Shown here in pieces: positions 10,261-14,509 of a stretch of DNA of 64,000 nt (its first letter is position 1; each line of letters opens with the position of its first letter). Below the pieces are notes generated by a model. That model saw nothing but the letters and a program-made list of their open reading frames with translations, had not been told where the DNA came from and did not search any database. Location: NCBI GenBank assembly GCA_021794275.1, contig JAJYRD010000021.1:1-64000 (forward strand). The letters are read 5' to 3'. This DNA is from Pseudomonadota bacterium. Lineage in GTDB: Bacteria > Pseudomonadota > Gammaproteobacteria > Acidiferrobacterales > Acidiferrobacteraceae. A program made the position numbers and the translations under genes.

Positions 10261-10347
10261 GATCCCACAGGGACTTCCTTCGGTCGTAGCGCCGCCGCGT
10301 AGCGGCGATATTTCACAAATGCCTGATATTTTTTTATAGTCGTGAAT

Positions 10348-11094
10348 ATGGGCGAATTGCCGACCACTCAGGTGTTGACCTGCAAACTGAAACTGCTGCT
10401 GGACAAGGAGCAGGTCGACGCTGTCCGGTGCATGGCATGGGCTTACCGTAATGCCCTGAACCACGCATCTGCCGTGGTTTTCGCCAACGGTAAGATATCG
10501 CAGGGAATGAAACTGCAAACCATGGTTTACAAGGACTTGCGTGAGCGGTTCGATCTGCCGTCCCAAATGGCCTGCAATACGCCCCGGCAGGTGGCGGCCT
10601 ACAAAACCCTCTGGGAGCGGGCCCGCTCCAACGCCGCCCACAAGACGAAAGGCTGGACCAAACGCCGGTACAAGGGTCTGGATAAAGCGCCGAAATTCAC
10701 CGCGCTGACCGTCACCTTGAACCCTCGCAGGGATTGGGCCTTGGGAAAGGAACAAACCGTCAAGGGCGTGGACCTGAGCCGCCGCAATATCGCGGTGGAA
10801 TCCAAGACGCGCGGCAAATGTCGTTTTTATCATGGCGGGCACCAAAAGCATCTTGCCGAACGTGCCGCCAGTGCACGCAGTGCGCTGCAAGCGAAGGGCG
10901 CTCGCGGGGCCAAGGCGGTTTTGAGGAAACTGGCGTTGCGAGTCAGTATGCGAACGCTCCTCATCTGGCAAGACTGGCTGAGGACGGGGCGCTTGTCGAC
11001 CGCCCCTGAAGCCCCAGGTGACGAAGCCAAAGCCGCGCGTCTCTCGAGATACGCGGAATTGCGGTGGAGCCTAGAGGCAAGCTCCGTCCTTTAG
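10348..11094 (+). pseudogene. IS605 OrfB/TnpB-family protein, internally deleted
   Basis: About 248 residues from the ATG at 10348, whereas intact relatives have around 400 or more. The N-terminal half is well preserved (LTCKLKLLLDKEQ, LPSQMACNTPRQVAAYK, KKRYKGLD-type segment). After TLNPRRDW the sequence jumps straight to VKGVDLSRRNIAVES, the first RuvC strand with its Asp, dropping the wedge of about 70 residues between them. After RGAKAVLRKLALR it leaves the family: the second RuvC carboxylate, the zinc ribbon (CxxC...CxxC) and the last RuvC Asp are absent. The final LRWSLEASSVL matches the usual end of these frames where they run into the element's terminal hairpin. A nuclease is not possible; I treat it as a pseudogene. 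Confidence 0.7.
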
Positions 11095-11184: not shown

Positions 11185-11394
11185 TTATGCCGGCCCTTCG
11201 CGATAGGTATGGCATCGTGTACAGACAACGAGAACCCATCGTTGGTTATGCGTTTGCCGGGGGGGGGGGTCGTCGTTGCCGACCGGCGGGCGTAACCCGA
11301 GATCGCGGCGTTCCACGCGTCCTCCGCATCTCGGGCAGGTGTCGAGACCGGCGGGATGCGCAAGCAAGCGAAATTCTTGTTCTGTAAAAAACAT
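11185..11394 (-). CDS. Small putative zinc-ribbon protein containing a homopolymer tract
   Basis: A 69-residue frame starts at the ATG at 11394 with an AGGGA ribosome site seven bases upstream. It holds two CxxC pairs, CPRCGG near residue 20 and CTRCH near residue 58, the arrangement of a treble-clef or zinc-ribbon mini-protein. A run of eleven Cs on the coding strand (Gs at 11259-11269 on the plus strand) encodes the DDPPPR segment between the pairs. I do not recognise a family. The frame would be broken by any one-base change in the tract, so it is either a phase-variable gene or a chance frame. Its surroundings are decayed IS sequence, which lowers confidence. Confidence 0.42.
   Translation of the reverse strand: MFFTEQEFRLLAHPAGLDTCPRCGGRVERRDLGLRPPVGNDDPPPRQTHNQRWVLVVCTRCHTYREGPA
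11259..11269 (+). repeat. G11 homopolymer tract
   Basis: Eleven consecutive Gs, counted from the sequence, lie inside the small minus-strand zinc-ribbon frame. Tracts of this length slip readily during replication. Confidence 0.9.
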
Positions 11395-11648
11395 CGCGGG
11401 TTCCCTGTTTTATGAAGTCTCAAGCGATGCCATGAGCAGCAGTATCTCCGCGCGTTATTGAGCGCTCGCCGTGTCTGGAGGTCAACCGCGTAATGGGGAT
11501 GCGATAACCGTCGCGTGGGAGAGCGTGGGGTGCGGAGGCTTCCCGGGGCATGGCCAATGACGGCGTACCCCTTATGCGCCTTGAGTCCCACACCGGAAAA
11601 GTCTAGGGTCTGTAGGAAGGGGCAGGGGCTGCCGGGGGAGTGGGCTGT
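11395..11648. other. Region without a recognised gene upstream of the C/G tract
   Basis: Frames here are short and have no family signature that I recognise. A GGGGGAG-like ribosome site occurs just before an ATG at 11649, whose frame runs into the C14/G26 tract. Confidence 0.35.
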
Positions 11649-11720
11649 ATGCCGGAAACCAAAAAAGCTCGGTTGAAACGGCGGGGTGTTGCGCATCCCG
11701 GATTCGGAGAAGGAATTTCA

Positions 11721-11760
11721 CCCCCCCCCCCCCCGGGGGGGGGGGGGGGGGGGGGGGGGG
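11721..11760. repeat. C14/G26 homopolymer inverted repeat upstream of the EAL gene
   Basis: Fourteen Cs are followed directly by twenty-six Gs, bracketed by TTTCA on the left and TGAAA on the right, so the whole forms an inverted repeat with unequal arms. The G run could form quadruplex structures and the tract must be slippage-prone. Its exact length may also be an assembly guess. It sits 67 bp before the TTG I use for the EAL gene, whose own frame is open right up to the tract. Confidence 0.85.
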
Positions 11761-11827
11761 TGAAACACTCCCCTGCGTCTCTCTGGAACCTGGCACCGTC
11801 CCATGGCCCGGCCTTCTGCTTGAGGCC

Positions 11828-12541
11828 TTGGCGCAGAGTCGGATCCGGGCGGCCTATCAGCCGATCGTGACGCTCACGCCGCCGCGTACCATGGTCGGTG
11901 AGGAGGCCTTGGTGCGACTGGTCACGACCGAGGGCGCGGTGATCCCGGCCGGGGCCTTCATCGCCGCGGCCCACACGGCGGGACTGGTGCCTGCGCTCGA
12001 CGAGGTCGTGCTGACGGAGACATTGGCGCGGTGCGTGGCCTGGACGGGTCCGCCACGGCTGTACTTTATCAACGTGTCGACGGCCCTTCTGACGGCCCCG
12101 GACCGTCTGGACGCGCTGATCCGTGCGGTGGTGCCCGGTGGGCGCTGTCGTACGGACGATCCTTATCTGCGCTCGGTCGTGTTCGAGATCACCGAGCGTG
12201 AGCTGCTGTCCGACCTCGCGGCTGTCCGCAAGGCCCTAAACCCTTTGCTGGACGCGGGTGTGCGGCTGGCGCTCGATGATTTTGGGAGCGGATACTCGTC
12301 GTTTCTGTATCTGGCTGATCTCCCTGTCAGCTTTCTGAAGATCGAGCAGGCGTTGATCCGGCGCCTGGGGCGTGACCGGCGGGTCACGGTCATGGTCGCG
12401 GCCGTGACACGCATGGCCGCCGACCTCGGCATCACCGTGATCGCCGAGGGCATTGAGTCGGCGAGGGTTGCCCGTGAGGTCCGGGCTCTCGGAATCCCAT
12501 GGGGTCAGGGGTACTATTTCGGGCGACCGGGCTGGGGGTAG
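11828..12541 (+). CDS. EAL-domain protein, likely cyclic-di-GMP phosphodiesterase, N-terminus uncertain
   Basis: The protein is essentially a bare EAL domain, 237 residues from a TTG at 11828. The frame is open upstream to the C14/G26 tract (reading ETLPCVSLEPG...GLLLEAL), so the domain's first helix lies before this start and the true N-terminus is unclear. Catalytic elements are present: EAL at 26-28, Asn82 in FINVST, Glu120 in FEITERE, DDFGSGYSS from Asp150, Lys171 and EGIE at 207-210, then GQGYYF. The usual KxD after the barrel strand reads LKIE, a mild deviation. It likely hydrolyses cyclic di-GMP. No start codon lies in its own frame between an upstream stop at 11582 and the tract. It may be a truncated GGDEF-EAL gene or a phase-variable one. 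Confidence 0.75.
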   Translation: MAQSRIRAAYQPIVTLTPPRTMVGEEALVRLVTTEGAVIPAGAFIAAAHTAGLVPALDEVVLTETLARCVAWTGPPRLYFINVSTALLTAPDRLDALIRAVVPGGRCRTDDPYLRSVVFEITERELLSDLAAVRKALNPLLDAGVRLALDDFGSGYSSFLYLADLPVSFLKIEQALIRRLGRDRRVTVMVAAVTRMAADLGITVIAEGIESARVAREVRALGIPWGQGYYFGRPGWG

Positions 12542-12634: not shown

Positions 12635-14509
12635 TTGACCGCATCCGATGCCCGCCCGGGCATGCTTGTTCAAGCGGAACGCGAGGCCGTGACTGCGGCG
12701 CTCCTGCAAGCGACGGGGCATCTGGCCCAGGGTCAGGACGCCGAGGCTATCCTGCGGCCATTTTGCGAGGCGCTGGTGGCGGCATCGAGCCACATCCGGC
12801 TTGCCTGGATGTGGCTTGGGACCCCGGATACCACGATCATCCGCCCCACTTACGCGGTGGGTCCCGCCCGCGAGTACGCCCAGGCCCTGGTCTTGGGGGC
12901 CGACCAGGCCACGCGTCCCTTGAGCCCGGGGTTGCGGGCATTGGCCACGGGGCGCCCCGTGATGGCCACCGTCCGATCGGACCCGGCCTTCGCGCCTTGG
13001 CGCGACGAGGCCTTGCGTCATGGCTTGGAGGTGACGGCCAGCTTCCCGTTTGGCGAGGCGGGTGATGGCAAGCAGGGCGTCGTGGCGGTCTATGCTGATG
13101 AGGCGGATTATTTTGCGCGCTTGGGCTGGGGCCCCTTCGTGGCGTTTCAACACCTGGCTCAGGTGGCGCTGACTCAGGCGGCGTTGCGCGAGCGCCTGAA
13201 TATTATTGCCACCTTCGACAGTCTCACGGGTCTTCTGAACCGGGGCGCCATGCAGGACGCGCTGGAACGTGTGCATGGTGAAGCGAGGCGACGGCACGAG
13301 ACCTATGGTGTGTTGCTCCTCGACATCGATCGCTTCAAGCTCATTAATGATGGCTATGGTCACGGGGTCGGCGATGCGGTGATCCGCGGCATGGCTCGCA
13401 TCCTCGAGGGGTCGCTACGCCCAGGAGATCGGGCCGGGCGTTGGGGTGGCGAGGAATTCTTGTGCCTCTTGCCGGGCGCGGACCAAGCGACCGCCACGGC
13501 CATCGCCGAGCGCCTGCGTGCGGATATCATGCACCACCCATTCGTGGCGAGCGGGGGGCGGATCATGTATGCGACGGCAAGTCTCGGGGTGGCCTGTTTT
13601 CCGGCGGATGGGGGCAGCGTGCAGGCACTGCTGAACCACGCCGATATGGGACTCTATGAGGCCAAGCGCGATGGGCGCAACCGGGTGGCCCGAGCAAGCG
13701 ACCGGGGCCGCAGCCTGTTTGCCACCGCCCAGCAACTCGAGGCGGCGCTCACGTCAGGACGGGTGCGTCCGGCTTACCAACCGATCGTGGCCTTAAGCGA
13801 TGGCCGCATCATGGCCAAGGAGGCCTTGGCGCGCATCGTCACGGCCCAGGGCGTGCTCGAGGCCGAACACTTCATCGAGGCGGCCGATCGTTTCCAGTGG
13901 CTCCACAGGCTCGATCACGACATGATCTGCCAAGTCATCGAGCATTGCGCGGCCGTGCGTAAGGCCCAAGGCATGCCCACCGCCTATTTCGTCAACGTGT
14001 CGACTGATCTCCTGCACCACGCCGAGCGGGTGCAGGACCTCCTTGAGCGCATCACGCGCACGACGATGCCATGCTGCACGGATGCGGATACGGAAAAGCC
14101 CTTGGTCATCGAGATCACCGAAGGGCAGTTTCTAGGCGACTTCGATGCCGTGCGCCGGACGCTCGCGCCGTTTCTCTCCTTCGGCATCCGCCTCGCCCTG
14201 GATGACTTTGGCAACGGCTACTCGTCCATTCGCTACCTGACCGAACTGCCGTTTGCTTTCGTCAAGCTTGATAAGACGCTCGTGAATCGGGTCCAGACGG
14301 TGCAAGGCCGGCGCATCCTCCGCGGCCTCCAGGACCTCGCGCGCGACCTCGGGTTTCGCACGATCGCCGAGGGCGTCGAGGACGAGGCATGTGCGGACGC
14401 CCTGGCCGCGCTTGGGGTCGACTGGGCGCAAGGCCACTACTTCGCATCCCCACGATTCGAGGATGCGCCCGAGGCGCTCGGGAAGAGCCCGGACGATGCG
14501 GCGTCCTAG
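12635..14509 (+). CDS. GAF-GGDEF-EAL cyclic-di-GMP enzyme
   Basis: This 624-residue cytoplasmic protein starts at a TTG with GGGAGA upstream. Residues about 20-180 look like a GAF sensor domain. A diguanylate cyclase domain covers about 190-350 (FDSLTGLLNRGAM, LLLDIDRFKLINDGYGH, GGEEF at 271-275), with an RxxD product-inhibition site at 262-265. An EAL phosphodiesterase domain covers about 365-610 (KEALAR with Glu396, FVNVST, EITEGQ, LDDFGNGYSS, VKLDK, EGVE, QGHYF). Both catalytic signatures are intact, so it could make or break cyclic di-GMP depending on its GAF input. It follows the EAL-only gene by 93 bp and its EAL part is similar in layout, which suggests the pair arose by duplication. 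Cyclic di-GMP commonly controls EPS production, and an EPS locus lies 13 kb away. Confidence 0.9.
   Translation: MTASDARPGMLVQAEREAVTAALLQATGHLAQGQDAEAILRPFCEALVAASSHIRLAWMWLGTPDTTIIRPTYAVGPAREYAQALVLGADQATRPLSPGLRALATGRPVMATVRSDPAFAPWRDEALRHGLEVTASFPFGEAGDGKQGVVAVYADEADYFARLGWGPFVAFQHLAQVALTQAALRERLNIIATFDSLTGLLNRGAMQDALERVHGEARRRHETYGVLLLDIDRFKLINDGYGHGVGDAVIRGMARILEGSLRPGDRAGRWGGEEFLCLLPGADQATATAIAERLRADIMHHPFVASGGRIMYATASLGVACFPADGGSVQALLNHADMGLYEAKRDGRNRVARASDRGRSLFATAQQLEAALTSGRVRPAYQPIVALSDGRIMAKEALARIVTAQGVLEAEHFIEAADRFQWLHRLDHDMICQVIEHCAAVRKAQGMPTAYFVNVSTDLLHHAERVQDLLERITRTTMPCCTDADTEKPLVIEITEGQFLGDFDAVRRTLAPFLSFGIRLALDDFGNGYSSIRYLTELPFAFVKLDKTLVNRVQTVQGRRILRGLQDLARDLGFRTIAEGVEDEACADALAALGVDWAQGHYFASPRFEDAPEALGKSPDDAAS

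Follow-up and report, generated by a model that had tools for sequence, protein, structure and literature searches.

The window, i.e. the whole 64,000-nt stretch of DNA analysed here, probably contains a translational contingency locus, in which slipped-strand phase variation at a C14/G26 tract would switch a c-di-GMP phosphodiesterase on and off (we put the probability at roughly 70%). Directly observed are the tract, the reading frames on both sides of it, tract and frame differences between homologs, purifying selection on the EAL domain and missing mismatch-repair genes. An earlier note on this DNA had proposed such a slippage switch, and the proposal gains support from relatives in which the two frames appear to form one gene, from recurring tracts of variable length, and from the selection and repair data. 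Tracts with mixed frame states recur also in a zinc-ribbon-like gene and in a glycosyltransferase gene.

The earlier note had described a run of 14 C directly abutting 26 G within a TTTCA/TGAAA frame, an ATG at 11649 with a GGGGGAG-type site opening a frame into the tract, and an EAL frame which reaches the tract with no upstream start of its own and is shifted by two bases against the first frame. All of this was borne out (Table 1). The flanks TTTCA (11716-11720) and TGAAA (11761-11765) extend the runs to an inverted repeat at 11716-11765, the 19-nt arms of which are 100% complementary. The leader frame, which starts at ATG 11649, extends across the tract as far as 11870. Upstream, the EAL frame stays open to 11585, and its first ATG, GTG or TTG is TTG 11828, which already lies inside the EAL profile (from profile position 10 of 236). 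The offset between leader and EAL frame is two positions modulo 3.

Table 1. Features of the candidate switch locus and its neighbourhood (positions in the window)
Feature	Position	Strand	Basis or remark
Divergent zinc-ribbon-like gene, 69 aa, two CxxC pairs	11185..11394	-	In frame as assembled
G11 tract (read as C11 in the coding direction of the divergent gene), separating its two CxxC pairs	11259..11269	+	Run count
Promoter-like element CTTGAG-N15-TCTA-N-GG	11580..11608	+	Also readable as TTGAGN-17 nt-TANGGT, sigma-70-like
Shine-Dalgarno-like GGGGGAG, 8 nt 5' of ATG 11649	11634..11640	+	Relatives have a purine-rich site ahead of their aligned ATG
24 leader codons (MPETKKARLKRRGVAHPGFGEGIS) preceding the tract	11649..11720	+	Aligned MP[ED]-type start in relatives
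Inverted repeat TTTCA-C14 / G14-TGAAA	11716..11765		Arms 11716-11734 and 11747-11765
C14 tract	11721..11734	+	Run count in the window
G26 tract	11735..11760	+	Run count; ortholog G006:C140 (G006a) has G23, then identical TGAAAC
EAL frame 3' of the tract: linker and EAL phosphodiesterase domain	11761..12541	+	Pfam EAL, 1.5e-52
Neighbouring GGDEF-EAL gene, without tract	12635..14509	+	Domain search

The length of C14/G26 is beyond chance, and its place is within the 5' portion of a coding sequence. In simulated 64-kb sequences (60 per model, models trained without the tracts), the longest G/C run had a mean of 9.2 and a maximum of 13 at order 1, and a mean of 7.85 and a maximum of 11 at order 4; in the window itself, the next longest G/C runs below 26 and 14 are 11 and 7. 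A C10G10 junction occurs a single time in the 2.68-Mb assembly to which the window belongs. The exact length of C14/G26 in this assembly may be wrong. As a side observation, a C37/G13 junction is present at L204 (703-752) in another genus of the order, in low-complexity surroundings near the 3' end of an ORF which we take to be transporter-like.

A perfect inverted repeat with 19-nt arms, in RNA which folds strongly (-115 kcal/mol, z -3.18), brings to mind attenuation of transcription by a hairpin or terminator in place of a frame switch. However, the terminator scan gave no terminator-like call at the tract, and the other three tract-bearing homologs contain one kind of long run and hence no such hairpin. 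Attenuation as a substitute for the frame switch is extremely improbable, although the repeat may hinder transcription in addition.

Relatives provide evidence for the slippage switch. The homolog set comprises ten sequences from the genus, including the window, with at least 56% identity and reaching into the leader; left out were the fragments G002:C1 (C-terminal part) and G008:C17 (49%), as well as many multi-domain EAL proteins of the same genomes. Each species is represented by one genome, so that the comparisons are between species and the on/off calls describe assemblies; since assembly tract lengths may be off by a base, every such call is provisional. With the leader frame judged from a start codon with a Shine-Dalgarno-like site, leader and EAL domain are in frame in five of the ten homologs, namely G009, G005b (the second copy in G005), G002 (later cut by the contig end), G006b (the second copy in G006) and G013. 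They are out of frame in four, namely the window, G006a, G005a (the first copy in G005) and G004, while G001 is not assignable. The leader start could be aligned in six (window, G009, G005b, G004, G002 and G005a), with the MP[ED]-type start aligned in G009, G005b, G004 and G002. No clear relation to this type was found for the leaders of G006a, G006b and G013; the leader start of G006a is uncertain, and in G005a a GTG within the EAL frame may serve as a start. G005 harbours in addition a third promoter-leader-EAL copy (L199, G005:C1:291900-294100) with an MP[ED]-type start and a stop soon after the beginning of the EAL part.

Long G/C tracts are present in four of the ten leaders: C14G26 in the window, G23 in G006a, C11 in G005a and C22-G-C8 in G005b. 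As assembled, three of these are out of frame and one is in frame. Of the remaining leaders, that of G001 has C7 and five have no tract. Under a uniform model based on the 20 sites with G/C runs of at least 11 in the 14 genus genomes, at least four long-tract sites in ten 200-bp leaders would arise by chance with P of about 5e-14. The close homologs G009 and G005b (dS 0.26) differ by 31 bases of tract, and both are in frame. Across relatives, tracts at the same spot thus have different lengths, bases and frame states. The earlier note had considered that a relative with a GGDEF part upstream would mark the gene as truncated. In nine of the ten homologs the EAL open frames of 213-373 codons are too short for such a part (the 213-codon frame is cut by the contig end inside EAL); the contig of G001 begins 183 nt upstream, so that a GGDEF part is not assessable there. 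Taken by their sequences, the relatives indicate that leader and EAL domain belong to one gene.

Long homopolymers are error-prone in sequencing, and three tracts in draft assemblies are no more than about 70 bases away from a contig end (G001:C13, G001:C110 and G007:C101). The gene in the window could therefore be a normal in-frame leader-EAL gene with a miscounted tract, or the tract could have been assembled from poly-G read artefacts. A miscount, however, would alter the frame call and not the presence of the tract, and different species have tracts at this point of the gene, with two such cases in one genome that is assembled as a single contig. Moreover, read-end poly-G artefacts on both flanks should, by our reasoning, place G before C and not C before G, and the right flank TGAAAC is common to the window and G006a. 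On balance, a sequencing or assembly error is a rather unlikely explanation.

Upstream of the leader ATG, comparison of the homologs uncovered a promoter-like element, which is seen only in this way, a plain sigma-70 scan giving no match at it. With the same spacing, 38-45 nt before the leader ATG, it occurs in five of the nine homologs scanned (window, G009, G005b, G004 and G002). One base is changed in G005a, a looser TTGAAT...TATAAA only is present in G013, and the element is absent from the two remaining of these nine, G006a and G006b. The bare pattern is not enriched: there is one match in the window's genome vs one reversed-control match, and in the 14 genus genomes 12 matches (in 9 genomes) vs 11. 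Five of these 12 matches are the leader-EAL genes. Among the other seven, three were read: the one in G005 precedes the third, truncated copy of the leader-EAL gene, and in the 700 nt after those at G011:C8 and G002:C111 no EAL protein was found. Given that bare matches are not unusual, what carries weight is the constant position and distance at the leader-EAL genes, and not the pattern alone.

The domain encoded 3' of the tract scores 178.8 bits against PF00563 (curated cut-off 31.3), and the solved EAL protein 2r6o/3n3t aligns over it (5e-31). Counted from TTG 11828, the residues E26, N82, E120, D150, D151, K171, E207 and Q227 are invariant in nine of nine homologs; we assume that they represent the catalytic motif (E of EAL, N, E, DD, K, E, Q) with the roles usually given to these residues. 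The gene product is thus predicted to be an EAL-domain c-di-GMP phosphodiesterase, and it is probably active as an enzyme. The distance between tract and first EAL residues is 67 nt in both the window and G006a, and mismatches between the two linkers, counted by EAL codon position, amount to 6/22, 5/21 and 10/23, which is a weak codon signal. The GGDEF-EAL neighbour is perhaps part of the same signalling locus: a gene 81% identical to it adjoins the EAL homolog in G001 and in no other compared locus, the contig of G006a ending soon after the EAL gene.

The earlier note had named gene decay as an alternative, in which the EAL gene would be a frameshifted pseudogene. The window copy is indeed out of frame as assembled, a stop cuts short the third G005 copy, and the frames of G004 do not match although it has no long tract, as would be expected after decay or after loss of a tract. 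Against decay, the EAL domain has a dN/dS of 0.21 (dS 0.79) between the window and G006a, both of which are out of frame as assembled. The frame in the window continues for 237 codons without a stop, and its catalytic residues are intact. Over all 36 pairs from nine sequences dN/dS lies between 0.14 and 0.37; dS reaches 1.9, which means that the far pairs are near saturation. Purifying selection on the EAL domain of two "off" copies makes decay unlikely.

In a further alternative, the EAL domain would be made at any tract length, by internal initiation at TTG 11828 or by slippage of RNA polymerase or ribosome, with the tract setting a graded level of expression. The TTG is present, long homopolymers can cause transcript slippage, and the strong RNA fold mentioned above could be counted in the same direction. 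However, the closest ortholog, G006a, has CTG where the window has TTG 11828, as does G001, and a protein starting there would lose the first nine EAL profile positions. We consider graded expression improbable, and the on/off switch by slippage remains our preferred reading.

A different kind of switch could be based on a 12-nt inverted repeat (CGGGATGCGCAA at 11352-11363 and TTGCGCATCCCG at 11689-11700), which flanks on both sides the divergent promoters of leader and zinc-ribbon-like gene. Recombination between its arms, which are perfect and 325 nt apart, would exchange promoters and initial codons between the two genes, and a repeat of this kind was found in none of 416 other 451-bp stretches of the window. 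This repeat was noticed after the fact, however, the matching region of G005b, G009 and G005a contains no inverted repeat of at least 10 nt, and inversion would leave the tracts unexplained. It is therefore a very unlikely mechanism at this locus.

The divergent zinc-ribbon-like gene also carries a tract, a G11 run which the earlier note had overlooked. We use the family name descriptively, since all Pfam matches of this gene are below cut-off. The gene is in frame with C11 in the window and with C14 in a second copy (contig C29), and out of frame with C48 in G005 and C8 in G009; remnants without a long tract are found at two more places in the window's genome and at one in G005. Among the compared loci, some on contigs that end early, it adjoins the EAL gene in the window, G005b and G009. 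On its other side in the window lies a transposase-like remnant (10342-11094; TIGR01765 below cut-off). The glycosyltransferase tract is G13 and in frame in G011, and G12 and out of frame in G001, on predicted start codons. More generally, runs of at least 11 G are present in 8 of the 14 genus genomes vs 5 of 46 other relatives (p 9e-4), and three of the long runs outside the genus sit at contig ends. Not all tracts of the genus are switch-like, several in G005 and G009 being intergenic or in unclear ORFs.

Some further observations concern the tracts of the genus and its relatives. At the genus loci, TGA directly follows 10 of 23 long G tracts (at least 10 G) vs 10 of 315 runs of 5-6 G at the same loci; after removal of five EAL-family arms the count is 5 of 18, for a motif which was chosen post hoc and for tracts some of which are related. 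At L071 (1660-1760) there is a 90-bp tandem duplication, the units of which bear C10 and C11. The 29-base tract at L077 (1986-2014), inside an ORF which is presumably alanine-dehydrogenase-like, is located 58 bases from a contig end and may be an assembly fault.

A missing mismatch repair would favour such tracts. MutS1 exceeded the curated cut-off in 0 of 14 genomes of the genus, 0 of 18 of the family and 2 of 57 of the order (nested counts, each including the smaller group), and the same was true for MutL, with the same two genomes positive. In three outgroups from the class, MutS1 was over the cut-off in one and MutL in all three, and of 14 well-known genomes used as controls, 11 were over the cut-off for each protein. 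Twelve of the 14 genomes of the genus encode a shorter protein with the MutS core only, which we take to be MutS2-like, and weak MutL-like stretches below the cut-off were found in two genomes of the genus. An assembly gap is an unlikely cause of the missing genes in G005, since this genome is a single contig of 3.4 Mb. In Campylobacter and Helicobacter, poly-G switching is likewise combined with missing MutS1 and MutL. Without these proteins, tracts in the genus should be unstable. Yet most of the order lacks MutS1 and MutL and has few long tracts, so that the loss of repair is at most permissive.

Based on these observations, we propose the following working model. Transcription would begin upstream of the leader ATG 11649, near 11615 if the promoter-like element is used, and ribosomes would translate 24 leader codons, then the hypermutable C/G tract and then the EAL domain. 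Slipped-strand mispairing, which may well be reversible in living cells, would alter the length of the tract, and either arm of the compound C/G inverted tract could slip. One of the three frame classes would yield a fused leader-EAL phosphodiesterase, the second would stop at the TGA directly after the tract, and the third would reach a short alternative end; the two off frames would thus give a short dead-end peptide and no enzyme. The absence of MutS1 and MutL would let the tracts grow and keep changing length, and cells of one population would differ in c-di-GMP turnover, with possible consequences for biofilm formation or attachment to minerals.

The host is presumably 'Acidiferrobacter' or near kin, with a probably acidophilic life style. 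As a tentative extension, about which we are more doubtful than confident, a free-living and probably acidophilic genus without MutS1 and MutL may run a small poly-G/C phasome, with a second-messenger enzyme, its divergent zinc-ribbon-like neighbour and a glycosyltransferase among the targets, by which clones would bet-hedge between the attached and the free state; the TGA context of the tracts may hint at a specific origin. Most known cases of phase variation by slippage of repeats concern host-associated bacteria and surface genes. If the proposed switch is true, an environmental organism lacking MutS1 and MutL would have a global lifestyle signal under random genetic control, outside any host. 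Should this organism live on minerals like its likely relatives, the switch could partly account for populations that mix attached with free cells.

In Campylobacter, the targets of poly-G/C switching are largely surface genes, whereas one of the targets proposed here is a second-messenger enzyme. No report on mismatch repair or phase variation in Acidiferrobacter, or on phase variation by homopolymeric tracts in acidophils, was found in the open-licence literature, and the portions of that literature dealing with phase variation and c-di-GMP, or with c-di-GMP in Acidiferrobacter, yielded no tract-switched c-di-GMP enzyme. According to excerpts of the PhasomeIt study (PMC6321876), Campylobacter contingency genes resemble the locus in having intragenic poly-G/C tracts which are present, shorter or absent among close homologs. 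In one isolate set described in these excerpts, 52% of the tracts were 9G and 30% were 10G, whereas the tracts of the genus analysed here are 8-48 long. Mismatch-repair-deficient Pseudomonas aeruginosa provides a second likeness, since tract indels and c-di-GMP functions are treated side by side in work on its adaptation (PMC8115180); in the excerpted parts of that report, the indels are intergenic and arose in laboratory mutators, and a dedicated phosphodiesterase tract is not described.

The closest functional parallels are phosphodiesterases which are phase-variable by other means. Parts of a 2025 review (PMC11868660) describe such enzymes switched by promoter inversion and by an epigenetic switch. 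The latter applies to the sfa-operon phosphodiesterase of E. coli (Zlatkov et al., as cited in sections of PMC11868660), which is phase-variable too, but without a repeat tract. In Clostridioides difficile, pdcB and pdcC encode phase-variable c-di-GMP phosphodiesterases (PMC9286219, PMC11868660, both in part), and the likeness to the locus in the window lies in a stochastic on/off phosphodiesterase and in heterogeneity within a population. The mechanisms differ, since pdcB and pdcC are, in the same parts of these sources, controlled by recombination-driven inversion upstream of the genes, whereas in the window the switch would operate by slippage of a tract inside the coding sequence.
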